Part shown: positions 4,417 through 52,580 of the stretch, piece after piece
Position numbering within the stretch: the stretch's first letter is position 1
How the letters are laid out: each line of letters starts with the position of its first letter
From: Amycolatopsis sp. DSM 110486
GTDB lineage: Bacteria > Actinomycetota > Actinomycetes > Mycobacteriales > Pseudonocardiaceae
Length of the DNA stretch: 64,000 nt
Assembly (NCBI RefSeq): GCF_019468465.1
Contig: NZ_CP080519.1
Coordinates: 5,660,001 to 5,724,000, forward strand
Reading direction: 5' to 3'
Position numbers and translations under genes: made by a program
Notes under the pieces: generated by a model
Told to the model about the DNA's origin: nothing
Database searches by the model: none
Seen by the model: only the letters and a program-made list of their open reading frames with translations

Positions 4417-4479
4417 GGCGCGCAAAGCGGCAGGTACCGTGGCCGCCAGCACACAAACGTGAATACCGGGCCGTTCGAG

Positions 4480-21328: not shown

Positions 21329-21350
21329 TCCGTGTCCTTTCGCCTCGGCT

Positions 21351-21487
21351 GTGTTTTCTGCCTCGGCTTCGCCGAGGCGCGCGAGATCGCCTGGAAGCCG
21401 GTGTTGGGATTGAGCGGTCGGATCGGCCGGGGGCCGATCGCCCCGCTCAATCCCAACACCGGCGCGATCTCGCGCTGTGGTTGCCTA
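21351..21487 (-). repeat. Structured repeat element, copy A (minus orientation)
   Basis: Read on the minus strand, the element starts near TAGGCAACCACAGC and continues with an outer 10 bp stem (GCGAGATCGC pairing with GCGATCTCGC), a long inner stem of about 20 bp capped by GATCGGCC-CCC-GGCCGATC, then a second hairpin GCCTCGGC-GAA-GCCGAGGC and a tail AGAAAACAC. Copies B (22154-22289) and C (38203-38337) share all these parts. The inner stem here carries GTGTTGGGATTGAGCGG with a matching partner arm. It sits just upstream of the membrane protein gene and forms an inverted pair with copy B. Confidence 0.85.
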
Positions 21488-22153
21488 TAGGGCCCCGGGC
21501 CGGGGGCTGGCCCGGCGGGGCCAGGGTAGTCGGGTGGCGGTGGCGGTGAGTGAGGCCGGTGCGGGCGGGCGCGGCTGTTCGCGGGCTTCCTGAGCGGACT
21601 CCGGCATTACGCGGTAGGCCAGGTGGGCTAGGAGCCGGGCGAGGTCGGGGGCCAGGAGTGTGCTGGTTCGGCCGCGTGGCCTTGGGCAGTGACAGGTTGT
21701 GCGACCGTCGTTGCTGCGCCTCCGCGACGAGCGCCGCCGCCTGATCAGGGGAGGTCGTTGGCAGGCCGTAGCGGGCCAGGTGGGCGACGAGCTGGGTGGG
21801 GTCGGGGCCACGAGACTAGCCGGTTCGGTCGCGCGGCCTTGGGCGGCGGCAGGATCTGCGGCGCTGTTGCAGCGCCTTCGCGACGAGCGCTGGCGACCGA
21901 TCGGGGAGGTCGTTGGGCGGCGGCGGGTGCTCGTGACGTTCGCGGCGCGGTCGGCAGTCGCCGGCGGTGAGGTCGTGGCCGGCGCCGAGGTGGTCGAGGC
22001 GTGAGTGCGCGGCCGGGTGGAGACCGAGGAGGGGCGGTGAAGCGTCCGGCGTAGGCGGCCGGGTCGAGGCTGGGGAAGGCTCGGTGAGGGCACCGGTGGT
22101 GGGGATCGGGCGGTCTGCCACGGCGACGACGCAGGGGCCTCGCCAAGGTCCTC
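21488..22153. other. 666 bp segment without a convincing gene, containing a degenerate 100 bp direct duplication
   Basis: No frame has coherent protein sequence. Open frames on both strands are Arg/Pro-rich, as expected from high-GC noise. Bases 21662-21762 and 21819-21917 are alike over about 100 bp (both run from CGGTTCGGNCGCGNGGCCTTGG-like sequence to GGGGAGGTCGTTGG). On the minus strand they read as related peptides, for example PDQAAALVAEAQQRR and PDRSPALVAKALQQRR, but in different frames with stops between. This looks like a decayed gene with internal repeats, bracketed by inverted repeat copies A and B. Confidence 0.5.
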
Positions 22154-22289
22154 AGGCAACCACGGAGCGAGATCGCGCCGGTGTTGGGATCGGGCGGTGC
22201 GATCGGCCCCCGGCCGATCCGACCGCCCGATCCCAACACCGGCTCCAAGGCGATCTCGCACGCCTCGGCGGAGCCGAGGCAGAAAACAC
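22154..22289 (+). repeat. Structured repeat element, copy B (plus orientation)
   Basis: The outer stem pairs 22167-22176 with 22250-22259. The inner stem is a perfect 21 bp (22178-22198 with 22222-22242), capped by GATCGGCC-CCC-GGCCGATC (22201-22219). The second hairpin is GCCTCGGC-GGA-GCCGAGGC (22262-22280), followed by AGAAAACAC. The right side of the long stem carries a 7 nt bulge, CTCCAAG. The element ends 2 bp from the stop codon of the convergent 67-codon gene on the minus strand. Confidence 0.88.
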
Positions 22290-22291
22290 GG

Positions 22292-22495
22292 TCACTCCGG
22301 GTGCTGAGCCACGGCCACCACGGCGTCGCGCAGCGCGGCCCTCAGACGTCCGACGTCGAGGGGCCCGAGCACGGCCGCTTCGCCTGGCGGCGCCACGAGC
22401 ACGATCTTGTCGTCGCTGCTCACGAACACCGTCACGTCCCTGCGCCTGCCCGCCAGATCCCGGCAGCCGATCGACCACTCGTCCCGGTCTGTCAC
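22292..22495 (-). CDS. Small conserved-looking protein of unknown function, 67 aa
   Basis: The GTG at 22495 follows a good ribosome binding site (GGGAGG, about 8 nt upstream on the minus strand). The product alternates hydrophobic and charged residues like a small folded domain: VTVFVSSDDKIVLVAPPGEAAVLGPLDVGRLRAALRDAVV, which reads as two beta strands and a helix. Coding use is plausible with G/C-rich third positions. No family is recognised. Its stop codon almost touches repeat copy B, which could end its transcript. Confidence 0.6.
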   Translation of the reverse strand: MTDRDEWSIGCRDLAGRRRDVTVFVSSDDKIVLVAPPGEAAVLGPLDVGRLRAALRDAVVAVAQHPE

Positions 22496-22688
22496 GGCTC
22501 TCGCCCTCCCGATTCCGCGTTGCGATCGTGCTTCGTGCGGGGGTGGGACGAGCGCCTCACGCGGCTCTTACGCGGGTTCACCCGAATTGCCTACCGACGG
22601 GTTGTCCTGGCGGGTTCACCTGGGATGTGCCGTCCGCGCAACGGGAGTAGCGTCCACGCGGCAGGTGGTGGGGACGCGGGAGGTCGGG

Positions 22689-23924
22689 ATGTCCGGGATG
22701 GCGCAACCGCGCAAGATCGTGATCGTCGGGGCCGGTCTCGCGGGGGCCTCGGCTGCCGCCGCCGTGCGGGAAAAGGGCTTCGGCGGCGACGTGCTGCTGA
22801 TGGGTTCGGACCCGCACCGGCCCTACGAGCTGCCGCCGCTGTCGAAGGGCGTGCTGCTGGGCACCACTGACGAACCCGATTGGGTGCACGAGGCCGGGTT
22901 CTACGACGCCCACGCCATCCGGCTCACCTCCGGACTCACCGCCACACGCCTGGAGCTCGGCGCGCGCCTCGTGCTCGACGACGCCGGCGGCGAGCACCTC
23001 TTCGACCGCCTCGTGCTCGCGACGGGTTCCCGTCCGCGTCCGCTGACCGCGCCCGGCGGCAACTTCCCGGGCCTCTACACGCTGCGCACGCTGGACGACT
23101 CGCTCAGCCTGCGCACGGCGTTCGTCGACGCCCGGCGCGTGGTGGTCATCGGCGCCGGCTGGATCGGCACCGAGGCCGCGGCGGCCGCGCGTTCGCACGA
23201 CGCGGACGTGACCGTGGTGGCGCCCGGGCGCCTGCCGCTCGGGAAGGTCCTCGGCGCCGAGGTGGCCGGGGTTTTCCGGTCCCTGCACCAAGAACACGGC
23301 GTGCACTGGCGTCTGGGCGAGCACGTCGCGGAGGTCACGGGCGACCCGAGCGGCGTGCGTGGCGTGCGGCTGCAAAGCGGTGAGGAGCTGCTCGCCGACG
23401 TGGTCCTCGTGGCCGTCGGCGCCGCCCCGCGCGTGGAACTCGCCCACACGGCAGGCCTCGAGCTCTCGGACGACGGCGGCGTCGCGGTCGACGCGGGCCT
23501 GCGCACGGCCGCCCCGGACGTCTACGCCGTCGGCGACATCGCGTCGCACTTCCACCCCCGCTACGGCCACCGCGTGCGCGTCGAGCACTGGGCGACCGCG
23601 CGTACGCAGGGCGCCCACGTGGCCGGGAACCTGCTGGGGGAGAACGAGCCCTACCTGAATTCGCCGTACTTCTTCTCCGACCAGTACGACCTCGGCATGG
23701 AGTACCGCGGCCTCGCCGACCTCGACCGCGACCGCCTCGTCGTCCGCGGCGACCTCGCGGCGCGCGACTTCACGGCGTTCTGGGTCGGCGCCGAGGGCGA
23801 AGTACACGCCGCGATGAACGTGAACCAGTGGGACGACGGGGATGCGTTGCAGCGCTTGGTGGACGGACGCATGAACGTGCGTGACGAGGACCTGAAGTCG
23901 GGCAACCTCGCAAACCTCGGGTGA
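22689..23924 (+). CDS. FAD-dependent ferredoxin/rubredoxin reductase, 411 aa
   Basis: Two Rossmann motifs are present: IVGAGLAGASAAAAVRE for FAD near residue 11 and VVIGAGWIGTEAAAAAR for NAD(P) near residue 155. The second FAD-contact motif, DVYAVGDIASH, is near residue 280. The C-terminal reductase domain follows. Such enzymes pass electrons from NAD(P)H to ferredoxins serving cytochromes P450 or dioxygenases; no ferredoxin or P450 gene is adjacent. ATG at 22689 is preceded by GGGAGGTCGGG; ATG 22698 is an alternative. Confidence 0.9.
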   Translation: MSGMAQPRKIVIVGAGLAGASAAAAVREKGFGGDVLLMGSDPHRPYELPPLSKGVLLGTTDEPDWVHEAGFYDAHAIRLTSGLTATRLELGARLVLDDAGGEHLFDRLVLATGSRPRPLTAPGGNFPGLYTLRTLDDSLSLRTAFVDARRVVVIGAGWIGTEAAAAARSHDADVTVVAPGRLPLGKVLGAEVAGVFRSLHQEHGVHWRLGEHVAEVTGDPSGVRGVRLQSGEELLADVVLVAVGAAPRVELAHTAGLELSDDGGVAVDAGLRTAAPDVYAVGDIASHFHPRYGHRVRVEHWATARTQGAHVAGNLLGENEPYLNSPYFFSDQYDLGMEYRGLADLDRDRLVVRGDLAARDFTAFWVGAEGEVHAAMNVNQWDDGDALQRLVDGRMNVRDEDLKSGNLANLG

Positions 23925-23964
23925 TGGCTTGATCGCCAGTGGCACCGAAGGCACAGTGAAAGGC

Positions 23965-24435
23965 ATGCTGCTTCGCGCCGCTTAGCCCCATGAAGCCGCC
24001 GACCTCAGCGCGCTCACGCTGCGGTCGAAGGCTCACTGGGGCTACGACGAGGCGTTCCTGGAGGCATGCCGAACCGAGCTGACCCTCCGACCCGACGACC
24101 TGGTCGCGGGGAAAGCGACCGTGGCGCAGATCGGCGAGCACGTGGTCGGGTTCTACACCCTGGCCGGTCAGGCACCCGAAGGTGAGCTCGCCTGCCTCTT
24201 CGTCGAGCCTGACCACATCGGTACCGGCGTCGGCCGCCGGTTGTGGCAGCACGCGGTGGACACGGCCCGCACGCTGGACTTTCAGCGGCTCATCATCGGC
24301 TCCGACCCGTTCGCCGAGGACTTCTACCGGAAGATGGGCGCGGTCCGGATCGGCTCCGTGCTCTCGGGATCCATTCCGGGCCGGCTGCTCCCGCAGCTGG
24401 TCTACCGGCTCTCGCCTGGGCCGGCACCCGGGTGA
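23965..24435 (+). pseudogene. GNAT N-acetyltransferase with an in-frame nonsense codon at codon 7
   Basis: ATG at 23965 opens a normal GNAT start (MLLRAA), then TAG at 23983-23985, and the same frame continues without further stops: PHEAADLSALTLRSKAHWGYDEAF, and the acetyl-CoA motif FVEPDHIGTGVGRRLWQHAV. A GAG or CAG codon changed to TAG would explain it. The next possible start is GTG at 24121, which would give 104 aa lacking the first strand and helices. No other ATG, GTG or TTG lies in frame between. This is a recent pseudogene, a sequencing error, or a shortened product. Confidence 0.75.
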
Positions 24436-24438
24436 GGC

Positions 24439-25506
24439 TCAGACCTCCACCTGGATGACCGGCCCGTCCAGCGCCAGGTACCCCACCAGGTTCGGCGGCG
24501 CGTAGTCCGTAGCGCGCTTGTGGCGGGTGACGGAGCTGGAGGCGACGTACTCGTGTTTCGGGTCCGTGGTGCCGATTCCGCGCGTCATGGAGGGCAGCAG
24601 GCGGTAGAAGCCCGTGCGGGACGGGTGGATCGGCCCCAGGGCGTCGGGTTCGTTGGCGAGGCCGGGTTCCAGCGCCAGGCCGCACGACCGCGCTCGGTCG
24701 GCGAGCCAGCGCAAGGTGACGTCGGCGAGGCCGTGCTGGGTCCGTCCGCCACCGCCGACGTCGCCGTGGCAACCGGCGAACCACACCTGTTCCACGTGGT
24801 GCGTCACGCCCTCGGTGGGAGGCGCCCACACCGACGGTGTGAACGGCTTGCGGTGCTCGTCGATCGCCAGCGCCTGGTAGGCGGCGTCGACGGTCGCGCT
24901 CAGTGCCGTGTCGTGGAACTGGAACCGGCGGTTGAAGACGTCGAACGGCCAGAACCCGGTCAGCGGCACGCCGAGCGCGCCGACCGTGTCCCACACGCCG
25001 ATGAAGCGGATCCGCGGTTCGTGCGCGTAGGACTTGCGGAACAGGGCCATCTCGGTGGACCGCGGGTGCGTCTTGTCGGAACGGTCACGGTAGAGCCCGT
25101 ACGCCTGCTTCACCCGGTGCTCGTGTTCGCGGCGCAGCAGGCCGCAGTTGCGGATGAGCCCGGCCGTGCTGCGGGCCGTGTACGCACCGCGGCTGAAGCC
25201 CAGGAAGAAGATCTCGTCGCCGGGTTCGTAGGTCCGGACCAGGAAGAGGTAGGCCTCTTGAATGTTGCGCGAGAGCCCCACGCCGAACGCGCCGCCGAGC
25301 AGCTTCTGCCGTTTGGTGCCGACGCCGGACTGGTAGAAGGCCCGTTGTTCGGTCCCTGCTTCGTCGACCGGCGCCACGGCGAGTGCGAGCTGCGTGACGT
25401 TGGTCGGTGCCGGAGTGTGGCCGTCGACCACGTCCGCCATGTCCGCCGAGTCCCATGTGCCGTCGCAGCAGATCACGATCCGCTTGGGCATCCGCACCTC
25501 GTTCAT
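24439..25506 (-). CDS. DUF2235 alpha/beta-hydrolase-like protein, 355 aa
   Basis: The N terminus KRIVICCDGTWDSAD and the nucleophile elbow FLGFSRGAYTARS near residue 103 define the DUF2235 family, together with VWDTVGALGVP near residue 170 and VWFAGCHGDVGGG near residue 245, which supply the likely Asp and His of the triad. Some family members are phospholipase effectors or carried by secretion systems; no such genes are nearby and no signal peptide is seen. ATG 25506 or ATG 25488 may be the start. It converges on the GNAT pseudogene with 3 bp between them. Confidence 0.85.
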   Translation of the reverse strand: MNEVRMPKRIVICCDGTWDSADMADVVDGHTPAPTNVTQLALAVAPVDEAGTEQRAFYQSGVGTKRQKLLGGAFGVGLSRNIQEAYLFLVRTYEPGDEIFFLGFSRGAYTARSTAGLIRNCGLLRREHEHRVKQAYGLYRDRSDKTHPRSTEMALFRKSYAHEPRIRFIGVWDTVGALGVPLTGFWPFDVFNRRFQFHDTALSATVDAAYQALAIDEHRKPFTPSVWAPPTEGVTHHVEQVWFAGCHGDVGGGGRTQHGLADVTLRWLADRARSCGLALEPGLANEPDALGPIHPSRTGFYRLLPSMTRGIGTTDPKHEYVASSSVTRHKRATDYAPPNLVGYLALDGPVIQVEV

Positions 25507-25724
25507 CGGTCGAAGAGTCGGGGGCCATCAATTCACGACCCGGCGCGGTTTTCAACGGGTTCGGCCGAATCGGTACCGAAGACACGGTGTGACAAGGAAA
25601 AACGGGCGGGAACCCACGCTCGGGCGGAGGGACCATCGGCCAGGGTGCCCGCCAGGGTGATCCGATCAATTTTGACACCAAATCCTCCAGACCTCTGGAT
25701 CCCGCGCCGCCCATGCGCTATACA

Positions 25725-25740
25725 TCGGATGTCTTGATGT
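25725..25740. promoter_or_regulatory. Candidate GntR operator upstream of the L-fucose catabolic operon
   Basis: TCGGATGTCTTGATGT here and TCGGATGTTTCGGTGT at 33168-33183 match at 13 of 16 bases. The second lies upstream of the other fucose operon and its GntR regulator. TATACA at 25719-25724 could be the -10. The 258 bp gap 25507-25764 also contains TTGACA (25672-25677) and the near-palindrome TCCAGACCTCTGGA; nothing in it looks coding. Confidence 0.45.
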
Positions 25741-25764
25741 GGCTGTGGTGAGAGGGGAACGTCC

Positions 25765-26625
25765 GTGCAGCTTGTGCGTCTCGGAGCCGCGGGAGAAGAG
25801 CGACCGTTCGTGCGTGCCGGAGACGGCACTCTGTACGACCTCTCCCGCCTCACGGCCGACGTCGACGGCGCGTTCCTCGCGGCCGACGGCCTCGCCCGCG
25901 TCGCCGCCGCGCTCGAAGCCGGCGAGCTGCCCGCCGCCGGCCCGGAAACCGCGAGCCTGCGCGTCGGCCCGCCGCTGGCCTCGCCCGGCAAGGTTCTCTG
26001 CATCGGCATGAACTACCGCCGGCACGCCGAGGAAACCGGCGCCGCCGTGCCGACGGAACCGGTGCTGTTCATGAAAGCCCCCGACGTGATCGTCGGCCCG
26101 GACGACGACGTGCTCATCCCGCGCCGCTCGACCAGCACCGACTGGGAAGTCGAGCTCGGCGTCGTGATCGGCAAGCAGGCCCGCTACCTCGACAGCGTCG
26201 AGGAGGCCCTCCAGTACGTGGCCGGCTACGTCGTGTCCAACGACGTCTCCGAGCGCGAGTTCCAGCTGCACCGCGGCGGACAGTGGGACAAGGGCAAGAA
26301 CTGCGAGACGTTCAACCCGCTCGGCCCGGCGCTCGTGACCGCCGACGAGGTGCCCGACCCGCAGGACCTCGGGCTGCGCACCTGGGTCAACGGCAAAAAG
26401 GTGCAGGACTCCTCGACGAAGGACATGGTCTTCACCGTCGCCGAGATCATCCACTACCTGAGCCAGTTCATGGTGCTGCGCCCCGGCGACCTGATCAACA
26501 CCGGCACCCCCGAGGGCGTCGCGCTCGGGCAGCCGGAGCCGAAGCCGTACCTGCGCGAGGGCGATGTCGTCGAGCTGGAGATCGACGGCCTCGGCCGCCA
26601 GCGCCAGACGCTGAGGCAGGCCTGA
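25765..26625 (+). CDS. Fumarylacetoacetate hydrolase-family protein, probable 2,4-diketo-3-deoxy-L-fuconate hydrolase, 286 aa
   Basis: FAH-fold enzyme with the metal-binding acidic cluster [12 protein letters not shown] near residue 130 and NDVSEREFQ near residue 158. C-terminal [15 protein letters not shown] closes the active site as in the family. In the non-phosphorylating L-fucose pathway this hydrolase splits 2,4-diketo-3-deoxy-L-fuconate into pyruvate and L-lactate. The next two genes fit fuconate dehydratase and the 4-dehydrogenase, so this role is favoured over aromatic catabolism. Start GTG follows GAGGGGAAC. Confidence 0.88.
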
Positions 26626-26626
26626 C

Positions 26627-27928
26627 ATGGCGAAGATCATCGGCATGGAGGTGCTCGACGTCCGGTTCCCGACGTCCCGGGAGCTCGACGGCTCGGACGC
26701 CATGAACCCCGACCCCGACTACTCGGCCGCCTACGTCGAGCTCCACACCGACCTCGGCCCCGACGGCTACGGGCTCGCCTTCACCATCGGCCGCGGCAAC
26801 GACGTGCAGGCCGCCGCGATCCGCGCGCTCGCGCCACACCTCGTCGGCCGCGAAGTGCCGGAGGACGCCAACGCGCTCGGCCGGCTCTCGCGCGACCTGA
26901 TCGGCGACTCGCAGTTCCGCTGGCTGGGCCCGGAAAAGGGCGTGGCGCACATGGCGATCGGCGCGGTCGTGAACGCCGCGTGGGACCTCGCCGCGCGCCG
27001 GGCCGACCTGCCGCTGTGGAAGTTCGCGGCCCGCATGACGCCGGAAGAGCTGGTGTCGCTCGTGGACTTCCGGTACCTGTCCGACGCGCTGACCGAACAG
27101 GAGGCGCTCGACATCCTGCGCGCCGCCGAACCCGGCCGCGAGGAGCGGATCGCGAAGCTCGAAGCCGAGGGCTACCGCGCCTACAGCACGTCGCCAGGCT
27201 GGCTCGGCTACTCCGACGCGAAGCTGGTGCGCCTGGCCGAACAGGCCGTGGCCCACGGCTTCGAGATGATCAAGCTGAAGGTCGGTGGCAACCTCGAGGA
27301 CGACGTGCGCCGCATGAAGCTGGCGCGCGAGACGGTGGGCGCGGACATCCGCATCGCCGTGGACGCCAACCAGCGCTGGGACGTGGCCACGGCCGTGTCC
27401 TGGATGACGGAGCTCGCGCCGTTCGACCCGTACTGGATCGAAGAACCGACCTCGCCCGACGACATCCTGGGCCACGCGGCCATCGCGAAAGCACTGGCGC
27501 CGATCAAGGTCGCGACCGGCGAGCACGTGCAGAACCGCGTGGTGTTCAAGCAGCTGCTGCAGGCCGGCGCGATCGACGTGCTGCAGCTTGACGCCGCGCG
27601 CGTCGGCGGGGTGAACGAAAACCTCGCGATCCTGTTGCTGGCGGCCAAGTTCGGCGTTCCGGTGTGCCCGCACGCCGGCGGCGTCGGGCTGTGCGAGCTG
27701 GTGCGGCACCTGTCGATGTTCGACTTCGTGGCCGTCTCCGGCGAGGACACCGACCGCACCATCGAGTGGGTCGACCACCTGCACGAGCACTTCACCGACC
27801 CGGCCGTCGTGCGTGACGGCCGGTACCTGGCCCCGACCGCACCCGGGTTCTCCGCGCGGATGCACGACGCGACCCTGCGCCGCTTCCGCTTCCCGGACGG
27901 TCCAGAGTGGACGGAGGACGCCCAGTGA
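26627..27928 (+). CDS. L-fuconate dehydratase, enolase superfamily, 433 aa
   Basis: The catalytic base motif MIKLKVGG (KxK) lies near residue 218, metal ligands are in [21 protein letters not shown] and [10 protein letters not shown], and the catalytic His is in [13 protein letters not shown] near residue 350. The insert [14 protein letters not shown] preceding the barrel is typical of L-fuconate dehydratases. It dehydrates L-fuconate to 2-keto-3-deoxy-L-fuconate. The gene follows the FAH stop by one base and its own stop overlaps the SDR start. Length agrees with the family (about 430-440 aa). Confidence 0.92.
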
Positions 27929-28683
27929 GCGAGTTCGACGGCCTGGTCGCCGTGGTCACCGGCGGCGCTTCGGGGATCGGCCTGGCCACGGCCACGCTGC
28001 TCGCCGAGCGCGGCGCGCGGGTGGCCGTGCTGGACCTCAAGACCGACGACGTGCCCGAGCCGCTGGCCGGCTTCCGGTGCGACGTCACGGCCGACGCCGA
28101 GGTCAGGGCCGCGATCGACGCCGTCGCCGAGCGTTTCGGGCGGATCGATGTGCTGGTCAACAACGCCGGCATCGGCGCGGCCGGCGACGTCTCGGACAAC
28201 AGCGACGACGAGTGGCACCGCGTGTACGACGTGAACGTGGTCGGCATGGTCCGGGCCACGCGCGCCGCCCTGCCGCACCTCAAAGCCTCGCCTTCGGCGG
28301 CCGTGGTCAACACCTGCTCCATCGCCGCGTGGGCCGGCCTGCCGCAGCGGGCGCTGTACTCCGCGACGAAGGGCGCGGTGCTGTCGCTGACGCTCGCGAT
28401 GGCCACCGACCACCTGCCCGACCGCATCCGCGTGAACTGCGTGTGCCCCGGCACCGCGGACACGCCGTGGGTCGGGCGCCTGCTCGACGCGGCCGCGGAC
28501 CCGGCCGCCGAACGCGCGGCCCTGGCCGCTCGCCAGCCGATGGGCCGGCTCGTGACCGCCGACGAGGTCGCGAGCGCCATCACCTACCTCGCCAGCCCGC
28601 TGTCCGCGTCGACCACCGGCACCGCGCTCGCGGTCGACGGCGGCATGCACGGCCTGCGTCCGCGGGGACCTGTGCAGAACTAG
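27925..28683 (+). CDS. SDR, probable 2-keto-3-deoxy-L-fuconate 4-dehydrogenase, 252 aa
   Basis: Classical [17 protein letters not shown] near residue 10, [12 protein letters not shown] near residue 80, and the catalytic Tyr and Lys in [11 protein letters not shown] near residue 145. GTG at 27925 overlaps the dehydratase stop (GTGA) and is preceded by GGAGG at the right distance; an upstream in-frame GTG at 27907 is less likely. Between fuconate dehydratase and the transporter, it fits oxidation of 2-keto-3-deoxy-L-fuconate to the 2,4-diketo acid. Substrate assignment is inferred from the gene set. Confidence 0.85.
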
Positions 28684-28730
28684 TGCTCGTTTGCACGTCA
28701 TCAAGTTTGCCTGTCATCAAGGAGGATGCG

Positions 28731-31297: not shown

Positions 31298-32306
31298 GCT
31301 GATGAGCGATCCGCAGACGGCGCTGCCCGCGGCGCCCCCGAAACGGCGCAAGTCGCTGTGGCTGCGCGAGCTGGCGCTGCTGCCCGCGCTCGTGGTCGTG
31401 TTCGTGATCGGCGGGCTGATCAGCGACTCGTTCTTCACGTTCGACAACGTGATCAGCATCCTCTCGGCCGCCGCCGCGCTGTCGCTGGTGGTGCTGGGCG
31501 AATCGCTGGTGCTGCTGACGGGCAAGTTCGACCTGTCGCTCGAATCGACCATGGGCATCGCACCCGCGATCGGCGCGATGCTGGTGATCCCGGCGACGTC
31601 GTCGGGTTTCGGCACGGGCTGGCCGGCCGCGCTGGGCTTGCTCGCGATCCCCGTGGTGGGTGCGCTGATCGGGCTCGTGAACGGCTTCCTGATCGTGAAG
31701 CTCAAGCTCAACGCGTTCATCGTCACGCTGGCGATGCTCACGGTGCTGCGCGGCACGCAGATCGGCTCCACCAACGGCAAGACGCTGTTCGACCAGCTCG
31801 ACGCGTTCACGGCGCTGGCGACCACGACGTTCGCCGGGCTGCCGATGTCGGTGTGGCTCGCGGCGGTGCTGTTCCTGCTGTTCGGGCTCGGCCTGCGCTA
31901 CCACCGCGTCGGCCGCTCGCTCTACGCGATCGGCGGCAACCGCGAGGCGGCGCGCGCGGCGGGCATCCGGGTGGACCGGATCTCGTGGGCGGTGTTCATC
32001 GTCGCCGGTGTGCTGGCCGCGATCGGCGGCCTCGCCTACACCGGCTACGTCGGCGCGCTCGGCGCCGACCAGGGTGACGGCCTGATCCTGCAGGTCTTCG
32101 CCGCGGCGGTGATCGGCGGTGTCTCGCTCGACGGCGGCAAGGGCACGCTCGTCGGCGCCGTGACCGGGGTGCTGCTCCTGCAGTCGGTGGACAGCCTGCT
32201 GCGCATCGCGCAGGTGCCGGCGGAATGGCTGAAGGCGATCTACGGCGGCATCATCCTGATCGCCCTGATCATCAGCCGCTACGCCGGCGGAAAGCCGCAG
32301 ACCTGA
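31290..32306 (+). CDS. Sugar ABC transporter permease (RbsC type), 338 aa
   Basis: A hydrophobic protein with about eight to ten membrane segments and the family motifs GKFDLSLESTMG near residue 80, GLVNGFLIVKLKLNAFIVTLA near 135 and LYAIGGNREAARAAGIRV near 215. ATG at 31290 overlaps the ATPase gene by 8 nt. It completes a one-permease importer of the ribose/fucose type. A hairpin terminator follows. Confidence 0.92.
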   Translation: MTELMSDPQTALPAAPPKRRKSLWLRELALLPALVVVFVIGGLISDSFFTFDNVISILSAAAALSLVVLGESLVLLTGKFDLSLESTMGIAPAIGAMLVIPATSSGFGTGWPAALGLLAIPVVGALIGLVNGFLIVKLKLNAFIVTLAMLTVLRGTQIGSTNGKTLFDQLDAFTALATTTFAGLPMSVWLAAVLFLLFGLGLRYHRVGRSLYAIGGNREAARAAGIRVDRISWAVFIVAGVLAAIGGLAYTGYVGALGADQGDGLILQVFAAAVIGGVSLDGGKGTLVGAVTGVLLLQSVDSLLRIAQVPAEWLKAIYGGIILIALIISRYAGGKPQT

Positions 32307-32347
32307 TCGGCGCCTGGGCCGTGATCATCCGACCTTATCGCCGTTCC

Positions 32348-32394
32348 GTGAAGGGCCCCTCCAGGGATTCAGAGTCCCTCGAGGGGCTCCTCAC
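32348..32394. terminator. Bidirectional terminator between permease and GntR genes
   Basis: The arms GTGAAGGGCCCCTC (32348-32361) and GAGGGGCTCCTCAC (32381-32394) pair at 12 of 14 positions around an inner AGGGA/TCCCT stem. It separates the convergent permease (+) and regulator (-). Confidence 0.75.
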
Positions 32395-32410
32395 AGAGCC
32401 TCGGCGACGC

Positions 32411-33142
32411 TCACGAGGCGGCGGCTTCGGCGCTGTCGTCGGCCGGGCTGTCGGCGTCCGTGCCGGTCTGCGTGAGCGTGCTGCGCAGCCACTGCTCGAC
32501 CCCCGCGACGTGCACGGTCGCCCACGACCGGGCCACTTCCGGCTCACGGGCGGCGATGGCCTCGTAGATGGCCGTGTGCTGCTCACGCGTGCGCGCGACC
32601 GCGCCCTCCTGCGTGAGGCCGCGCCAGATCCGCGCCCGCGCCGTGGGCCCCGACAGGCTGTCGAGCAGCGAGCAGAGCACGGGGTTGCCCGAGCCATCGG
32701 CGATCTTGCGGTGGAACTGCAGGTCGTTGGCCACGAGCGCCTCCACCGTCGGCGCGTCGGCCAGCTCGTCGAGCAGGGCGCCGAGCTCGGTGATGTCGTC
32801 CTCGCTCATGTGCAGCGCGGCCAGCGCCGTGGCGGCCGGCTCGAGGATCCGGCGCACGGCCAGGAAGTCGAGCACGGTGTCGTCGCGGTGGAAGTCGACC
32901 ACGAACGTCATGGCGTCGAGCAGCAGGTTCGGCTCGAGACTGGTCACGTACGTGCCGTCGCCCTGGCGCACGTCGAGCACCCTGATCAGGCACAACGCCT
33001 TCACGGCCTCGCGCAGGGAGCTGCGCGAGAGCCCCAGCCGCTGGGCGAGCTCGGCTTCCTTGGGCAGCCGGTCGCCCGGCGCGAGCTCCCCGGAGATGAT
33101 CATGTCCTTGATCTTGTCGATCGCGACATCGGTGACGGGCAT
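32411..33142 (-). CDS. FadR-subfamily GntR regulator, probable repressor of the L-fucose genes, 243 aa
   Basis: The winged helix contains KIKDMIISGELAPGDRLPKEAELAQRLGLSRSSLREAVKALCLI near residues 10-52. The FCD ligand domain follows, with FHRKIADGSGNPVLCSLL near residue 145 and TREQHTAIYEAI near residue 190. The C-terminal 20 residues are Asp/Ala/Ser-rich. It lies between the two fucose operons and diverges from the mutarotase operon, and a shared 16 bp motif precedes both. It therefore probably senses a pathway acid such as fuconate. The target is inferred. Confidence 0.88.
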   Translation of the reverse strand: MPVTDVAIDKIKDMIISGELAPGDRLPKEAELAQRLGLSRSSLREAVKALCLIRVLDVRQGDGTYVTSLEPNLLLDAMTFVVDFHRDDTVLDFLAVRRILEPAATALAALHMSEDDITELGALLDELADAPTVEALVANDLQFHRKIADGSGNPVLCSLLDSLSGPTARARIWRGLTQEGAVARTREQHTAIYEAIAAREPEVARSWATVHVAGVEQWLRSTLTQTGTDADSPADDSAEAAAS

Positions 33143-33167
33143 CGAGACCGCCCTCCCTCAAGAGACC

Positions 33168-33183
33168 TCGGATGTTTCGGTGT
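33168..33183. promoter_or_regulatory. Candidate GntR operator in the divergent regulator/mutarotase promoter
   Basis: TCGGATGTTTCGGTGT matches the site upstream of the FAH gene at 13 of 16 bases. It is followed by the near-palindrome GTGTTCTGAACAC (33180-33192). The 80 bp gap is the only control region for both divergent genes. Confidence 0.45.
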
Positions 33184-33222
33184 TCTGAACACAGAGTGCC
33201 ACGTAACTCGTCAGGAGGGCTC

Positions 33223-33573
33223 ATGACCCACGGCTCGGCACCGCACTCTGCCCCTGAAAGGGTTGCTCTTCGCACTCGGCTCAAACCGGGTCAAGAGGCG
33301 ACCTACGAGTCCGTGCACGCCGTGATCCCGCCCGAGCTCGACGCGGCGCTGCGGCGCGCCGGCGTGCGCACGTGGCGGATCTGGCGCAGCGGGCTCGACC
33401 TGTTCCACTTCGTGGAGGTCGACGACTTCGACGCCATGAAGGCCGCGCTCGCCGACGATCCCGCCGACATCGAGTGGCAGATCCGCATCAACCGGCTGCT
33501 CGACACGGACGACGACTGGTCCGATACTTCGACGGCCCTGGGGCTCGTCTGGGAACTTCCGGTGAAGGAGTGA
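33223..33573 (+). CDS. L-rhamnose/L-fucose mutarotase-family protein, 116 aa
   Basis: RhaM-like ferredoxin-fold protein: RTRLKPGQEATYESVHAVIPPELDAALRRAGVRTWRIWR at the start, then DLFHFVEVDDFDAMKAAL, with the conserved His near residue 35 and the C-terminal WELPVKE. These proteins interconvert anomers of L-rhamnose or L-fucose, providing the anomer used by the dehydrogenase. ATG 33223 follows CAGGAGGGCTC. It starts the operon mutarotase, aldose dehydrogenase, lactonase, with 2 nt to the next gene. Confidence 0.85.
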   Translation: MTHGSAPHSAPERVALRTRLKPGQEATYESVHAVIPPELDAALRRAGVRTWRIWRSGLDLFHFVEVDDFDAMKAALADDPADIEWQIRINRLLDTDDDWSDTSTALGLVWELPVKE

Positions 33574-33575
33574 AC

Positions 33576-34550
33576 GTGAAGCTCTCCCCGCTCGGGCTCG
33601 GTGGCGCGCAGCTCGGCAACCTCTACCAGGCGATCGACGACGACACGGCGACCGCGACCGTGCGGCGTGCGTGGGACGAGGGCATCCGCTACTTCGACAC
33701 CGCCCCGCACTACGGGCTCGGGCTCTCCGAACGGCGCCTCGGCGCGGCACTCGCCGCGTACCCGCGAGACGAGTACGTTCTCTCCACCAAGGTCGGCCGG
33801 GTGCTCGAACCCCGCGCCGCGGCTCCGGGCGAGCGCGACGACCAGGGCTTCGACGTGCCGGCCACCTACCGGCGGCGCTGGGACTTCAGCCGCGACGGCG
33901 TGTTGCGGTCGCTGGAGGCGAGCCTCGACCGGCTCGGCCTCGACCGCGTCGACATCGTGTACGTGCACGACCCGGACGACCACTTCGCCGAAGCAGTGAG
34001 CGGCGCGTTTCCCGCGTTGCTGGAGCTGCGGGAGCAGGGCGTGATCGGCGCGGTCGGCGCCGGGATGAACCAGACGCCGATGCTCACCGAGTTCGTCCGC
34101 CGCTTCGACCTCGACCACGTGCTCATGGCCGGGCGCTACACCCTGCTCAACCAGCCGGCGCTCGACGACCTGCTGCCGCTGTGCCTCGAACGCGGCGTCG
34201 GCGTGGTCGCGGGCGGTGTGTTCAACGCGGGCATCCTCGCCACCGCGGAACCGGGCGCGATCTACGACTACGCGGCCGCGCCGGCGGAACTCGTCGAGAA
34301 GGCACGCAGGATCGCGGAGATCTGCGCCCGCCACGGCGTCGAGCTGCCGGAGGCCGCGCTCGCGCTGCCGGCTTCGCACCCGGCCGTGGTGTCGGTGGTC
34401 GTCGGCGCGCACGACGCCGGGCAGGTGGCGGTGAACGCGCGCCGCGCGGCCAAGGTCGTGCCCGCCGTACTGTGGACCGACCTCGTCGACGCCGGCCTGC
34501 TGCGCGCGGACGCCGTCGGCCGGCCCGTGACGTCTGGAGGACCGCAGTGA
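33576..34550 (+). CDS. Aldo/keto reductase, probable L-fucose (D-threo-aldose) 1-dehydrogenase, 324 aa
   Basis: Aldo/keto reductase catalytic residues are visible: Asp and Tyr in RYFDTAPHYGLGLSERRLG near residues 39-56, Lys in VLSTKVGRVL near residue 72, His in DIVYVHDPDDHF near residue 128. The short C-terminal NADP-binding region ends the chain. D-threo-aldose 1-dehydrogenases of this family oxidise L-fucose to L-fucono-lactone. GTG 33576 follows GGTGAAGGAG. It overlaps the lactonase gene by 4 nt. Confidence 0.9.
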   Translation: MKLSPLGLGGAQLGNLYQAIDDDTATATVRRAWDEGIRYFDTAPHYGLGLSERRLGAALAAYPRDEYVLSTKVGRVLEPRAAAPGERDDQGFDVPATYRRRWDFSRDGVLRSLEASLDRLGLDRVDIVYVHDPDDHFAEAVSGAFPALLELREQGVIGAVGAGMNQTPMLTEFVRRFDLDHVLMAGRYTLLNQPALDDLLPLCLERGVGVVAGGVFNAGILATAEPGAIYDYAAAPAELVEKARRIAEICARHGVELPEAALALPASHPAVVSVVVGAHDAGQVAVNARRAAKVVPAVLWTDLVDAGLLRADAVGRPVTSGGPQ

Positions 34551-35377
34551 TCGACGCCCACCACCACCTGTGGGACCCGACCCGCCGCGACTACCCGTGG
34601 CTCGCCGGCGCGGCGATGGACCCGATCCGGCGTCCGTACACAGTGGACGATCTACGCGCGGTGACACACGCGGCCGGGGTGCACGCCACCGTGCTGGTGC
34701 AGACGCTGCCCGACCAGGACGAGACGGAGGAGTTCCTGGCCGCCGCGGCGGCCGAGCCGGTGATCGCCGGCGTGGTGGGCTGGGTGGACCTGACGGCGCC
34801 CGACGTCGCCGACCGGCTGGCGCGGCTGAAGGAGCTGGGCCCGCTCGTGGGCATCCGCCACCAGGTCGAGAACGAGGACGACCCGGAGTGGCTGCTGCGT
34901 CCGGACGTGCTGCGTGGCCTGGCGGCCGTCGGGGCGGCGGGGCTGGTGTACGACCTGCTCGTGGCGCCCGCGCAGGTCGCGGCGGCGCGGAAGGTGGCCG
35001 AGCAGCTGCCGGAGCTGCGGCTCGTGCTCGACCACGCGGCGAAGCCGGCCATCGGGGCGCGGGAGTGGCAGCCGTGGGCCGACGGGATCGCATCGCTCGG
35101 CGCGCGGGACAACGTGGCGTGCAAGCTCTCCGGGCTCGTCACGGAGGCCGACTGGCAGCAGTGGCAGGTGGGCCACCTGCGCCGCTACGCCGACCACGTC
35201 TTCACCTCGTTCGGCGCCGACCGCGTGCTGTTCGGCACCGACTGGCCGGTGTGCGAGCTGGCGGCGGCCTACGAGGTCGTGCTCGACGCGGCCATGTCCC
35301 TCACAGGCCCGCTGACGGACCCGGAACGGCTCGACGTATTCGAGTACACGGCGAAACGCGTGTACGGACTCGGTTGA
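34547..35377 (+). CDS. Amidohydrolase-family lactonase, probable L-fucono-1,5-lactonase, 276 aa
   Basis: TIM-barrel amidohydrolase: the N-terminal metal motif IDAHHHLWDP is followed by GIRHQVENEDDPEWLLR near residue 105, LVLDHAAKPAIG near residue 163 and the catalytic Asp in LFGTDWPVCEL near residue 230. This is the same subgroup as L-fuconolactonase and L-rhamnono-lactonase. It hydrolyses the lactone from the preceding dehydrogenase to L-fuconate, the substrate of the dehydratase at 26627. GTG start overlaps the upstream stop. Confidence 0.9.
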   Translation: MIDAHHHLWDPTRRDYPWLAGAAMDPIRRPYTVDDLRAVTHAAGVHATVLVQTLPDQDETEEFLAAAAAEPVIAGVVGWVDLTAPDVADRLARLKELGPLVGIRHQVENEDDPEWLLRPDVLRGLAAVGAAGLVYDLLVAPAQVAAARKVAEQLPELRLVLDHAAKPAIGAREWQPWADGIASLGARDNVACKLSGLVTEADWQQWQVGHLRRYADHVFTSFGADRVLFGTDWPVCELAAAYEVVLDAAMSLTGPLTDPERLDVFEYTAKRVYGLG

Positions 35378-35381
35378 CGCG

Positions 35382-36053
35382 TCAGAAGTCTTCGCCCTGC
35401 ACCATGTCGCGCAGCTTCGTGAGCGCGCGGTGCTGGGTGACGCGGACGTTGCCGGCGGAGATGCCGAGCGTCTCGGCGGTCTCGTTGGCGCTCAGGCCGA
35501 CGATGATGCGCAGGGTCAGGATCTCCTGCTGCAGCGGAGCGAGGCGGGTGAGCATCTCCTGCAGGCGGGAACCGAGGTCGAGCCGCAGCGCATACGACTC
35601 GGGCTCGTTGCCGGTTCCCGACAGGGGTCGCTCCGGCAGCTCGGGCACCGGCTCGGACCGGTCCCGCGCGACGGCGCGGTAGGCGTCGGCGACCTTGTTG
35701 GCCGCGATGGCGTGCACGAGGTAGAGGAACGACCCGCCTCGGTCCTGGTAGTCGGGCAGGGCCTTGAGGACGGCCATGCTCACGTCCTGCGCCACGTCGT
35801 CGGCCGAGAGGTAGGACAGGTCGCGCCCGCCCATGCGCGCCCGGCAGTAGCGGGCCACCACGGGCCGCAGCACGTGGAGCAGTTCGGTGATCGCGCGCTG
35901 GTCCCCCCGGCCGGCGGCGACCACGAGCGGGTCGAGGTCTTCCTTGGTCAACCGGCCCGCGGGCCTCGGCAGCGTTTCCGGCGTGACGTAGCCTGGCACG
36001 TCTGCTTCGTCGGCGGCTGCTTCGGTATGGGACGTCTTCGACGGTGCTGTCAT
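35382..36053 (-). CDS. RNA polymerase sigma factor, SigD/ShbA type, 223 aa
   Basis: ECF-class sigma factor with region 2 (RYCRARMGGRDLSYLSADDVAQDVSMAVLKAL, then GSFLYLVHAIAANKVADAYRA) and region 4 (LAPLQQEILTLRIIVGLSANETAETLGISAGNVRVTQHRALTKLR). The ADDVAQDV and NKVADAYRAVARDR segments match the SigD/ShbA group, which in actinomycetes helps drive the principal sigma factor gene or late-exponential genes. I choose ATG 36053 because GGGGAGA precedes it; an in-frame start at 36158 would add 35 low-complexity residues. No anti-sigma gene is adjacent. Confidence 0.88.
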   Translation of the reverse strand: MTAPSKTSHTEAAADEADVPGYVTPETLPRPAGRLTKEDLDPLVVAAGRGDQRAITELLHVLRPVVARYCRARMGGRDLSYLSADDVAQDVSMAVLKALPDYQDRGGSFLYLVHAIAANKVADAYRAVARDRSEPVPELPERPLSGTGNEPESYALRLDLGSRLQEMLTRLAPLQQEILTLRIIVGLSANETAETLGISAGNVRVTQHRALTKLRDMVQGEDF

Positions 36054-36235
36054 GGTCGTCTCCCCGGCGACCCTGCGACCGTCGCTGGTCTTGGGGTCAA
36101 CACTCTGTGATGTTGCGGTCGCAGCTACTCCGGATGATCGAGTAGTTGCTGCCGTCATTGCGACGCTCCGTAACCCTATGCGGGTCGCGGGCCGACAGTC
36201 CAGATTTCAACTACGAATACCCCGTTAGCAGCAGT

Positions 36236-36256
36236 GGTCTTGATAAAATCGAGACC
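36236..36256. promoter_or_regulatory. 21 bp near-palindrome upstream of the sigma factor gene
   Basis: GGTCTTGATAAAATCGAGACC is symmetric at GGTCT-GAT and ATC-AGACC. It lies in an unusually A/T-rich stretch between the sigma gene and the DUF202 gene. It could be an operator for the sigma gene or part of a terminator for the DUF202 operon. The rest of 36054-36306 shows no gene. Confidence 0.35.
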
Positions 36257-36306
36257 AGTCAACGCACAGTACGATTCGCTGCTCGCAGGATGTGCGGACT
36301 GTCCAC

Positions 36307-36612
36307 TCAGTACGTCACCAAGAGTGACAGCGCCGTTGCACAACAGAGGGTGGCCACCACCGCGGGTAGAACGGGTTTCAGTGCGGGCGGCTCGGGGTCC
36401 GTGCGGAGTGATCGCTCCCGGTGTCGGCCGACCCCCGCGAGCGCCAGTGCGGTGAGGGCTGCGAACGCCGCCGGGACGATGTCCCACGCGCCTTCGTTGC
36501 GCACCGCGGCACCCAGCAGCAGCACCGCGCACGCGGCGGCCGACAGCGCGGTGCGGCGCCACGCGAGGCCGGTGCGTTCGGGCTGGGCGCCGTTCGCGAA
36601 GGGCCGGCTCAC
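36307..36612 (-). CDS. DUF202 membrane protein (second of a tandem pair), 101 aa
   Basis: The conserved DUF202 N terminus RTGLAWRRTALSAAACAVLLLGAA leads into three membrane segments, the last ending in TLCCATALSLLVTY. GTG at 36612 overlaps the stop of the other DUF202 gene by 4 nt, so both are made together and may form a heteromeric membrane complex. Function of the family is unknown. Confidence 0.8.
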   Translation of the reverse strand: MSRPFANGAQPERTGLAWRRTALSAAACAVLLLGAAVRNEGAWDIVPAAFAALTALALAGVGRHRERSLRTDPEPPALKPVLPAVVATLCCATALSLLVTY

Positions 36613-36992
36613 GACACGATCACCAGCACCACGGCGGCCGCCATCAGCAGGAACACTCCCACGGTGAGCACCAGGATCATCGAGCTGCGGGCCAGCGGCT
36701 GCCCGGCGCGCATGGCGATCTGCACGCGCCGCCAGCGCGGGTAGGCGCCGGCCGCGAGGATCGCCGCGAGCACCACGCACAGCCCGGCGAGCACGGAGCT
36801 CATCGCAACGGGCCTCGGCACCAGCTGGTGGACCGCGACACCGCCGGCGAGCAGGCCCAGGGCCGTGCGCAGCCACGCGAGGAACGTCCGCTCGTTGGCG
36901 AGGGTGAACCGGTAGTCCGGTTCGGTGCCACCGCTGTGGGGGCCGATGCTGGGTGGTTCGCCGTGGGGCGGGTCGAGCTTCTCTTCCGACAC
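36609..36992 (-). CDS. YidH/DUF202 membrane protein, 127 aa
   Basis: A soluble N-terminal stretch of about 25 residues is followed by the family signature RFTLANERTFLAWLRTALGLLAGGVAVHQLVP near residues 28-60 and two further membrane helices, ending LVLTVGVFLLMAAAVVLVIVS. It is the YidH-like partner of the shorter DUF202 protein downstream. It lies 10 nt after the GtrA gene in one operon. Function is unknown. Confidence 0.85.
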   Translation of the reverse strand: MSEEKLDPPHGEPPSIGPHSGGTEPDYRFTLANERTFLAWLRTALGLLAGGVAVHQLVPRPVAMSSVLAGLCVVLAAILAAGAYPRWRRVQIAMRAGQPLARSSMILVLTVGVFLLMAAAVVLVIVS

Positions 36993-37002
36993 TGCCCGGA
37001 CG

Positions 37003-37491
37003 TTAGTCGTGGTCCGCGGCGGGCGCTTCGGGCTCGGCGTGGGCGAAGACCCACCACCGCAGCACGGCGAACCGCACGACCCCGCCGATGAAGCTGGCGG
37101 CCAGCAGGCTGGCCGTTTCGTCCCACGCCGTCGGGTGGCTGACCACCGCGTCGAGGGTGGCCAGGACGATCGAGCCGTACCCGGCGTAGAAGACGAACGT
37201 GAGGAAGTCCTGCAGGTGGCGCTGGCCGGCCTTGCTCGCGCGCCCGGCGAACGTGACGCGGCGGTGGAACTCGGTGTTGCCGACCGTGGTGAGCGCGATG
37301 GCCACCAGGTTCGCCCACTGCGAGCCGAGTTCGGGGCGCAGGACCAGGAAGAGCACGGCCTGCAGGCCTGTGGTGACGCCGCCGGCGACGAGGTACCAGG
37401 CGGCGTGTCCGCCGAGCTCGTGGTCCTCGTGGTGACGCTGCGGGTCCCGGTGGAAAAGCGGCGGCCGGGGCGTCCACCTGGTGGTGGTCAT
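37003..37491 (-). CDS. GtrA-family membrane protein, 162 aa
   Basis: Four membrane segments and the GtrA hallmarks are present: WYLVAGGVTTGLQAVLFLVL near residue 32, NLVAIALTTVGNTEFHRRVTF near residues 61-81 and a C-terminal FIGGVVRFAVLRWWVFA. GtrA proteins are thought to flip lipid-linked sugars for surface polysaccharide modification. First gene of the operon with the two DUF202 genes. A perfect 7+7 bp inverted repeat lies 21 bp upstream of the start. Confidence 0.88.
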   Translation of the reverse strand: MTTTRWTPRPPLFHRDPQRHHEDHELGGHAAWYLVAGGVTTGLQAVLFLVLRPELGSQWANLVAIALTTVGNTEFHRRVTFAGRASKAGQRHLQDFLTFVFYAGYGSIVLATLDAVVSHPTAWDETASLLAASFIGGVVRFAVLRWWVFAHAEPEAPAADHD

Positions 37492-37511
37492 GATCTTGAC
37501 GCTACCTCTGC

Positions 37512-37527
37512 TTCACAAACTTGTGAA
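37512..37527. promoter_or_regulatory. Inverted repeat TTCACAA-AC-TTGTGAA upstream of the GtrA gene
   Basis: The two 7 bp arms are perfect, and a further half site CTTGTGA follows at 37549-37555. Its position near the start of the GtrA gene suits an operator; the binding protein is unknown. The rest of the 301 bp divergent gap 37492-37792 shows no gene. Confidence 0.5.
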
Positions 37528-37792
37528 CCTGATGAAGCCGATGAACACTTGTGATCCCGCTGACAGGGACTCCGCGCCTTTGGTTCAGCCCATCCGGCGC
37601 GCCGGCTATTCCGTGTTCTCGGGTGTTCGCGCGCACTCGCGCCCGCGTGTGGGCAGAACGCCCGGTTTTCAAACGCGTTTGTGACCGGTCCCACGGCTTC
37701 CCGGCGCGGGCGCCGCTCACGCTGCGCTGCCGAACGGGCGCCCCTAGCGTGAAAACCCATCGCATCCGACCGCGACGAAGGGAAGGCCGAAG

Positions 37793-38089
37793 ATGCTGAC
37801 CGTGACCGAAGCCGCCGCCGAGGCGATCTCCGCGCTGACGGCTCAACAAGGCGCCGAGGAGAGCGGGCTGCGGTTCGCCCTCCAGAGCGTGCAAGAGGGC
37901 GAGGGCGCTCAGCTCGCGCTTTCCGTCGCCCCCGCTCCCCAGGACGGCGACCGCGTCGTGGGCACCGACGCCGGCGCGAAGGTCTTCCTCGAACCCCAGG
38001 CCGCCGCCCTCCTGGACGACAAGGTCCTCGACGTCCAGCAGGACGAAACCGGCGACGTGGCCTTCGCGGTACTTCCGCAGCAAAGCTGA
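37793..38089 (+). CDS. HesB/IscA-like (A-type Fe-S scaffold fold) protein lacking cysteines, 98 aa
   Basis: The fold pattern matches A-type iron-sulfur carriers: MLTVTEAAAEAISALTAQQG, then GLRFALQSV, and near the end LEPQAAALLDDKVLDVQQDETGDVAFAVLP, where IscA has its C-terminal Cys pair. No Cys exists anywhere in the protein, so it cannot bind a cluster in the usual way. Actinomycete genomes often annotate such genes as HesB. ATG start follows GAAGGGAAGG. Function is unknown; it may be structural or bind something else. Confidence 0.75.
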   Translation: MLTVTEAAAEAISALTAQQGAEESGLRFALQSVQEGEGAQLALSVAPAPQDGDRVVGTDAGAKVFLEPQAAALLDDKVLDVQQDETGDVAFAVLPQQS

Positions 38090-38202
38090 ATAGTCTGCCC
38101 CCGCTTCCCGCCCGCCCCTAACGCGAGATCGCGTGTTGGGTTGGGAGCGAGCGGCGAGATCGACCTCCGGCGCAACTCAGACACATACCCGGACCGGCGC
38201 CT

Positions 38203-38337
38203 AGGCGACCACAGCGCGAGATCGCGCCGGCTTCCGGATTGGGCGGTGCGATCGGCCCCCGGCCGATCCGATCGCCCGATCCGGAAGCCGGCTCAAAGGC
38301 GATCTCGCCGCCCCGGCGGAGCCGGGGCCAAAGACAC
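38203..38337 (+). repeat. Structured repeat element, copy C, overlapping the glycerate kinase 3' end
   Basis: Same order of parts as copies A and B: TAGGCGACCACAGC, outer stem 38216-38225, inner stem 38227-38247 with 38271-38291 (two U-G/G-U type pairs only), GATCGGCC hairpin cap, second hairpin GCCCCGGC-GGA-GCCGGGGC (38310-38328), tail AAAGACAC. Its inner stem reads CTTCCGG where copy B has TGTTGGG, and the partner arm changes to match. The last 14 codons of the glycerate kinase gene lie within it. A partial related sequence (GCGAGATCGCGTGTTGGG) is at about 38121-38138. Confidence 0.88.
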
Positions 38338-52029: not shown

Positions 52030-52580
52030 TGGGCGAGCTGCTCACGACGCCGTCGCAGACCGTCGGCCCGTACCTGTCGATCGGGTTGCCGTGGGAAGAC
52101 GGGCCGTTCGTGGTGCCCGAGGGCACCCCAGGCGCGTTCTGGATCCGCGGCACCGTCACCGACGGCGCGGGCGAGGTCGTGCCCGACGCCATGATCGAGA
52201 CCTGGCAGGCCGACCCGAAGGGCGGGTTCGACCACCCGGACGACCCGCGGGGCCGCAGCGAGTCGGGCTTCCGCGCGTTCGGCCGGTGCCCCACCGACAA
52301 GAACGGCGAGTACCGCGTCCTCACGCTGCTGCCGGGTGTCCTGCCCGGTGAACAGGGCGAGCAGGCTCGTCACATCGACGTGTCGGTGTTCGCGCGCGGG
52401 CTGCTCAACCGGGTCGTCACGCGGATCTACTTCGAAGACCAGGACAACTCGGGCGACGCGGTGCTGGCGAGCGTGCCGGCCGAGCGCCGGAACACGCTCG
52501 TGGCGAAGAAGACCGAAGACGGTTACCGCTTCGACGTGCGGCTGCAGGGCGAGGGTGAGACGGTCTTCTTCGCGCTCTGA
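52029..52580 (+). CDS. pcaG: Protocatechuate 3,4-dioxygenase alpha subunit, 183 aa
   Basis: Alpha chain start TTPSQTVGPYLSIGLPW with DAMIETWQADPKGGF near residue 55 and ARHIDVSVFARGLLNRVVTRIYF near 115. Alpha subunits complete the active site without binding iron. It overlaps pcaH by one base (TGATG). The PcaGH oligomer makes 3-carboxy-cis,cis-muconate. Confidence 0.93.
   Translation: MGELLTTPSQTVGPYLSIGLPWEDGPFVVPEGTPGAFWIRGTVTDGAGEVVPDAMIETWQADPKGGFDHPDDPRGRSESGFRAFGRCPTDKNGEYRVLTLLPGVLPGEQGEQARHIDVSVFARGLLNRVVTRIYFEDQDNSGDAVLASVPAERRNTLVAKKTEDGYRFDVRLQGEGETVFFAL

Follow-up and report, generated by a model that had tools for sequence, protein, structure and literature searches.

We wanted to know what kind of repeat lies in the window, that is, the whole stretch of 64,000 nucleotides of Amycolatopsis sp. 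DSM 110486 analysed here. The original prediction had placed three copies of a structured repeat in it and left two explanations side by side, an RNA structure kept by selection and a mobile palindromic element. We used a covariance model built from 48 copies, and all three copies were confirmed at their predicted places (E 1e-23 to 1e-25). Copy A lies on the minus strand at 21346..21483 (cmsearch, 142.4 bits, E 1.3e-24), and copies B and C lie on the plus strand at 22157..22294 (148.1 bits, E 1.2e-25) and 38206..38342 (137.1 bits, E 1.2e-23). Besides these and their reverse-strand shadows, the window gave a single match, a weak one at 52136-52216 (E 0.018). Read from its 5' end, the element starts with a C/A-rich motif (GGCGACCACAGC or CCGACCACAAC) and the first arm of an outer stem, followed by an inner hairpin, about 30 bp long in the window copies and with a cap at its end. 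About 6 unpaired nucleotides (e.g. TCAAAG, TCCAAG) lead to the 3' outer arm, and after it come a second hairpin, whose loop is G-R-A, and an A/C-rich tail (e.g. CATCAAACACAG, CAAAGACACAG). In copy B, on the plus strand, the outer arms (22167..22176 and 22250-22259) enclose the inner hairpin with its GATCGGCC cap (22177..22243), variable in sequence and conserved in pairing, and the 6 unpaired nucleotides that separate the inner from the outer stem on the 3' side (22244..22249); the second hairpin (22262..22280) and the 3' tail (22281..22291) come after. Copy C has its outer arms at 38216-38225 and 38299-38308 and its second hairpin at 38310-38328, all on the plus strand. In copy A, the minus-strand sequence places the second hairpin at 21360-21378 and the tail at 21349-21359, with a second, degenerate tail unit beyond it, to about 21331. 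The outer stem, the long inner stem, the cap, the second hairpin and the A-rich tail were all present as predicted.

Several details of this anatomy vary. A small ORF on the minus strand, without Pfam match, ends at 22292, and the tail of copy B abuts its stop codon; copy C is adjoined on the plus strand by a probable relict of an older copy (about 38115..38208, nhmmer E 2.4e-4). Between copies A and B lie 660 bp without a called gene (21490-22150); the related genome G028 has one copy in this region and a much shorter intervening stretch. When the flanks of 142 copies were inspected by eye, a CGACCACA-like 5' motif and an ACACAG-like 3' motif were seen. Tandem repetition was found in several copies, either of the tail alone or of the part from the outer 3' arm through the tail; two full-length matches of G570 follow each other head to tail and share 14 bases. 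Elsewhere in the own genome (C1:9225369-9225607; L031, about 1370-1610), a 60-bp unit made of the left flank and the first 30 or so nucleotides of the element is repeated four to five times in tandem before a full copy. One subfamily carries an internal loop (GGACTGAG against GGAGGGAAG) where other copies pair throughout.

The same covariance model was run on the own genome and on related genomes, as had been proposed, and further copies were found in both. At least 40 copies were scored in the own genome of 10.98 Mb, and the matches listed divide into 22 and 18 between the two strands; BLAST with copy B gave 57 matches there, 34 of them long. The element was detected in 25 of the 80 Amycolatopsis genomes (counting the own genome; four of the 25 match more weakly than 1e-6) and in 53 of the 297 genomes of a sample of the GTDB family (own included, E <=1e-4), which belong to 6 of 46 genera. 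From the phylum sample, 2 of 296 genomes matched, the own genome and, weakly (59-69 bits), G055. Copy numbers per genome are lower bounds, as up to 40 matches per genome were counted in the genus and up to 11 in the family and phylum samples. Full-length matches above 60 bits were obtained in A. circi, A. orientalis DSM 43388, A. echigonensis and A. jejuensis, and also in Saccharothrix luteola, S. algeriensis and Saccharothrix sp. RH59; short or weak matches only came from S. carnea, Saccharothrix sp. ALI-22-I and Actinokineospora auranticolor. A pattern scan returned 113 places, and among the 80 tested with the model those from other orders or phyla had no match at E 0.01. G055 is a genome of the same order; four of its stretches, 160-230 bp long and similar to one another (L099, L100, L102 and L104), match the model weakly and may represent a structured repeat of their own, outside the GTDB family.

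Then, the fold was studied across copies. The differences between the stems of copies B and C are compensated, as had been read from the two sequences. The 48 copies come from several species. Of their 1962 pair cells, 98.2% held standard pairs, against a mean of 88.2% after shuffling, and none of 500 shuffles reached the observed value. Double changes were found at 21 of 41 pairs, and the covariation score was 0.319 against 0.126 in shuffled alignments and at most 0.081 with the partner slid by 1-3 columns; further pair types were the one measure that shuffles reached (5/500). In the outer stem, 4 of 10 pairs were invariant over the 48 copies. Copies sharing a site, compared in 26 overlapping comparisons, showed 78 double changes, 43 single changes to a wobble and 62 broken pairs.

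What reads as A-C on one strand is G-U on the other, so a bias among wobbles tells which strand folds. The two odd pairs of copy C are U-G and G-U when read on the forward strand, as first noticed, and this pattern holds over the whole family. Among 107 distinct copies, 80 cells were G-U and 25 A-C; this count used the first 110 alignment rows (>75 bits), the full alignment including reverse-strand matches. After clustering at 85% identity (53 groups), 63 G-U stood against 20 A-C (p 2.4e-6), or 29 against 7 when unambiguous stems only were counted. Counted by pair and type only, the figures were 27 and 15 (p 0.09), not significant alone, and an alignment-free count including loops gave 137 to 71. 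Since G-U is about three times commoner on the strand that the original prediction took as forward, the fold of that strand, as RNA or single-stranded DNA, seems to be under selection; the wobble bias could stem from single-stranded DNA as well as from RNA. The RNA-structure alternative is borne out to this extent, as covariation and forward wobble bias indicate that compensation keeps the single-stranded fold of one strand. Compensation could also arise in a DNA palindrome if one arm corrects the other when the DNA is replicated, and selection on a single-stranded fold would then have no part in it. Near-perfect arms, tandem duplications and the repeated loss of the inner palindrome described below suggest that a DNA hairpin is acted on. 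Arm correction is strand-blind, yet G-U prevails over A-C by 63 to 20 after clustering, and the bulge, the second hairpin and the tail are conserved with one polarity, so we regard this explanation as improbable. A strong conserved fold of the size of an RNA gene would also suit a trans-acting small RNA gene that has multiplied. We consider this very improbable, because by eye the 142 flanks hold no conserved upstream sequence that could be a promoter, copies sit in gaps in either orientation, and Rfam gave no match to the element at gathering score.

To see how stable the copies are, we compared the same gaps between relatives. Among 28 gaps common to different records, the element had opposite orientations in 11 (2 ambiguous, with an inverted pair within the gap). 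Between a ParA-like gene and HisG, for example, the own genome and G071 carry it in one orientation and G028 and G091 in the opposite one, and the inner stems differ. From the own genome, 16 copies were picked for comparison with G028, and 14 of the places were located there. G028 had no full copy at any of them and short forms at nine (model E <0.001), six in the same orientation and three in the opposite one, of which one lies about 500 bp off, perhaps in a different gap; the remaining five places gave no model match at E 0.05. Six other places are full in both genomes, a biased choice, having been noticed through long matches in both. A further site is empty in G091 and G029, and G028 has a deleted relict there. 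Copy C and the G028 copy L070 were considered as one insertion; their opposite orientations ruled this out and the pair was excluded from the counts. Short forms of about 70 bp, which have lost the inner palindrome by a cut at its foot, were found in several genomes. Loss of this kind is how unstable DNA palindromes behave. In G088, the gap where relatives carry the element holds an unrelated long palindrome (L083, about 1860-1930), which may be another repeat family of the genus.

By comparison of these sequences, the element has been both gained and lost between relatives, insertions being deduced from presence and absence. The mobile-element alternative likewise has support as regards mobility, since many dispersed copies exist and relatives show presence, absence or opposite orientation at the same gap. 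Altogether, the comparison of genomes shows dispersal, gain and loss, the use of gaps in either orientation, decay by palindrome loss and forward-biased pairing, together with the sense placement reported next. We consider that the repeat is probably a family of non-autonomous mobile elements of about 137 bp, found in Amycolatopsis, Saccharothrix and some related genera. Counting against this reading are the six places full in the own genome and in G028, the absence of a mobilising gene from our searches and one flush repeat in L014, both described below.

Next, we looked at the placement of the element relative to genes. Neighbours were taken from a codon-usage gene caller, not from annotation, with one copy per site at 113 sites. 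Both neighbours were in sense at 37 sites, convergent at 36, divergent at 17 and both antisense at 16; at the remainder, four copies were inside a called gene and three were unclear. The gene preceding the element was in sense at 73 and not in sense at 33 of the 106 classified sites (p 1.3e-4), and between genes of the same direction the element was in sense 37 times and antisense 16 times (p 0.005). A small control with the window gaps above 40 nt gave 4 convergent and 7 divergent. When the gene on the 3' side was on the opposite strand, its stop codon fell between -7 and +18 nt of the element end in 30 of 50 cases, and by eye the tail ACACAG often reads TTACAG, CTCAG or TCACAG where such a gene ends there. 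A Rho site in the 5' flank was considered and rejected, C being 40% against 36% in the control and equal for either direction of the left gene. Copy C illustrates how the element meets a coding sequence: the frame of the minus-strand glycerate kinase ORF (PF02595, 38293..39453) enters the copy and stops in the unpaired stretch, so that its last 14 residues are read from copy C. In place of these 14, the G028 homologue has two residues and then stops, ahead of a copy of its own that lies in the opposite orientation.

Such placement raises the question of a use for the host, the element then being an mRNA 3'-end structure for processing, protection or termination of the preceding gene, with its position selected. 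Sense placement behind genes, the opposite-strand stops near the element end (30/50) with many tails altered to a stop by eye, the compensated changes between same-site copies and the unrelated palindrome in the same gap of G088 are all consistent with it. The gap between the genes for ribosomal proteins L11 and L1 bears on both sides. It was located in 79 of the 80 genus genomes, with the flanking genes checked, and its sequence was inspected in 42 of these, the 8 genomes with a full copy and 34 others. The eight full copies lie five in one orientation and three in the opposite one. Among the 34 others, four gaps had a short form or relict (G089, E 2e-8; G034, 1.2e-4; G024, 0.0024; G080, 0.024) and 30 had nothing recognised, including that of the own genome, which is empty. 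Empty gaps are mostly about 20-40 bp long, and G081, G011 and G061 hold longer sequence of a different kind. Full copies in this gap were also found in G580, of the genus Saccharothrix, with mismatches in its outer stem, and in G595, of another genus; the 3' junction to the L1 leader is identical within about one base in these two and in the five sense copies. As this gap is occupied in Amycolatopsis and two further genera, a host function fits as well as mobility. The full copies in both orientations mean, however, that the element cannot be a strong terminator in this gap, except if the L1 gene is transcribed from a promoter of its own. By eye, no U-run follows either hairpin. At the 14 own-genome places located in G028 a full copy was never found, and the preceding gene is not in sense at 33 of 106 sites. 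With these points on the two sides, we hold a host-useful 3'-end element to be possible and rather doubtful.

If the repeat is mobile, which enzyme would move it? The Y1/RAYT transposase (PF01797) was found in none of the 80 genus genomes, with a profile that matched 5 of 14 control genomes. The Y2 transposase of the IS91/Helitron type (PF04986) was found in none of the 80 either, and the control genomes were likewise without match. Reverse transcriptase (PF00078) was present in 53 of 80, namely in 20 of 25 element-bearing and 33 of 55 other genomes (Fisher p 0.12), a weak correlation, and G091 has 39 element matches and no RVT_1 hit. A direct repeat flush with the element flanked 1 of 168 copies (25 bp, in L014), and other flanking-repeat scores were at or near control (12 against <=11) and not flush. 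In L014 (1495-1650), the 25-bp repeat spans a possible gene start and defines clean ends of the unit; it resembles the trace of a target-duplicating transposase. By eye, the 3' tail is not an inverted repeat of the 5' motif; the two look more like direct repeats. The criteria for an integron attC site are an integrase and a GTTRRRY core. A search of the own genome with the second-hairpin pattern gave 41 places, most of them listed copies and two that looked like chance; three further ones (L392, L393 and L394) proved to be a full copy, a short form and a fragment. No ORF-bearing, autonomous copy was noticed among these 41 places, in a search that was not exhaustive.

These searches bear directly on REP sequences and REPINs mobilised by a RAYT. 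REPINs are described as having conserved ends and base, a variable hairpin with compensatory changes and a mobiliser acting in trans (PMC3116915), and the present element shares the conserved ends and the compensated hairpins. It also resembles the REP-RAYT system as described in being a dispersed intergenic palindrome with a conserved base, and in that no autonomous copy was seen. It differs in build, being made of two hairpins of unequal size with a bulge and a tail rather than of an inverted pair of REPs, and among 142 copies whose flanks were read by eye neither GTAG nor CGTC was seen at the hairpin foot. Proteobacteria, Cyanobacteria, Chloroflexi and PVC are the groups given for GTAG repeats, and five phyla for CGTC repeats; Actinobacteria are in neither list as given in that account (PMC3733652). 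Since no Y1/RAYT transposase was found in the 80 genus genomes, the elements are not REPs, and we give a RAYT-mobilised REPIN next to no probability.

How, then, would a mobile family of this build spread? The unit would be the long hairpin on its conserved outer stem with the bulge of about 6 nt, the second hairpin and the A/C-rich tail. A putative enzyme that copies the element would recognise the forward-strand fold, whether this forms the 3' part of an RNA or is single-stranded DNA. Surviving copies would then be those at gene ends, where they do little harm and may add a strong hairpin to the mRNA. As a more specific and tentative version, which we think rather unlikely, the family may be a new class of mobile element in which a folded single strand of one polarity, RNA or single-stranded DNA, is directed to gene 3' ends by an enzyme of its own. 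This less likely version, a bacterial SINE-like element or a rolling-circle palindrome, would entail neither target duplication nor a Y1 transposase. The family adds a large unnamed set of structured repeats to the Pseudonocardiaceae, a group rich in antibiotic producers. It shares short gene gaps across species in either orientation, that between L11 and L1 included, and can alter neighbouring proteins such as the window glycerate kinase. With strong covariation and many species at hand, selection on it as RNA, as single-stranded DNA or as DNA only is now directly testable.

Finally, we compared the element with other known families. In the best reading, it is a new family with ERIC- and REPIN-like behaviour and a different build; its behaviour is closest to these two. 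ERIC is similar in length as described (about 127 against 137 bp), in its long hairpin and in its intergenic position behind genes, and an effect on mRNA is reported for it in Yersinia (PMC10969869). The present element differs from it by the second hairpin and tail, by lacking terminal inverted repeats and by giving no match when copy B was searched by blastn against 20,395 E. coli records at E 1e-3, the E. coli genomes being carriers of ERIC. Correia/NEMIS sequences and other MITEs are likewise small, non-autonomous, present in many copies and form a hairpin in RNA, and Correia transcripts are described as cut at the terminal inverted repeats (PMC10969869). Here, in contrast to Correia/NEMIS as described, the paired outer stem is internal to the second hairpin and tail, and unlike MITEs of DDE transposons the element has no terminal inverted repeats and shows a flush direct repeat in just 1 of 168 copies. 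The Pae-1 and Efa-1 stem-loop families, predicted as a pair of adjacent hairpins (PMC2267715), also have two hairpins side by side and belong to other phyla, a comparison made by description only. The original prediction knew of no named family with these features, which agrees with Rfam 15, with the phage, plasmid and E. coli records and with the open-access literature. Blastn found no match in phage and plasmid records, and searches of open-access papers gave no such repeat for Amycolatopsis, Saccharothrix or Pseudonocardiaceae. With copy B as query and E up to 5, Rfam returned 14 matches, all below gathering score. At gathering score, the one Rfam 15 family found in the window was a glycine riboswitch (RF00504, 54.5 bits), on the plus strand at 4476-4569 and away from the element.
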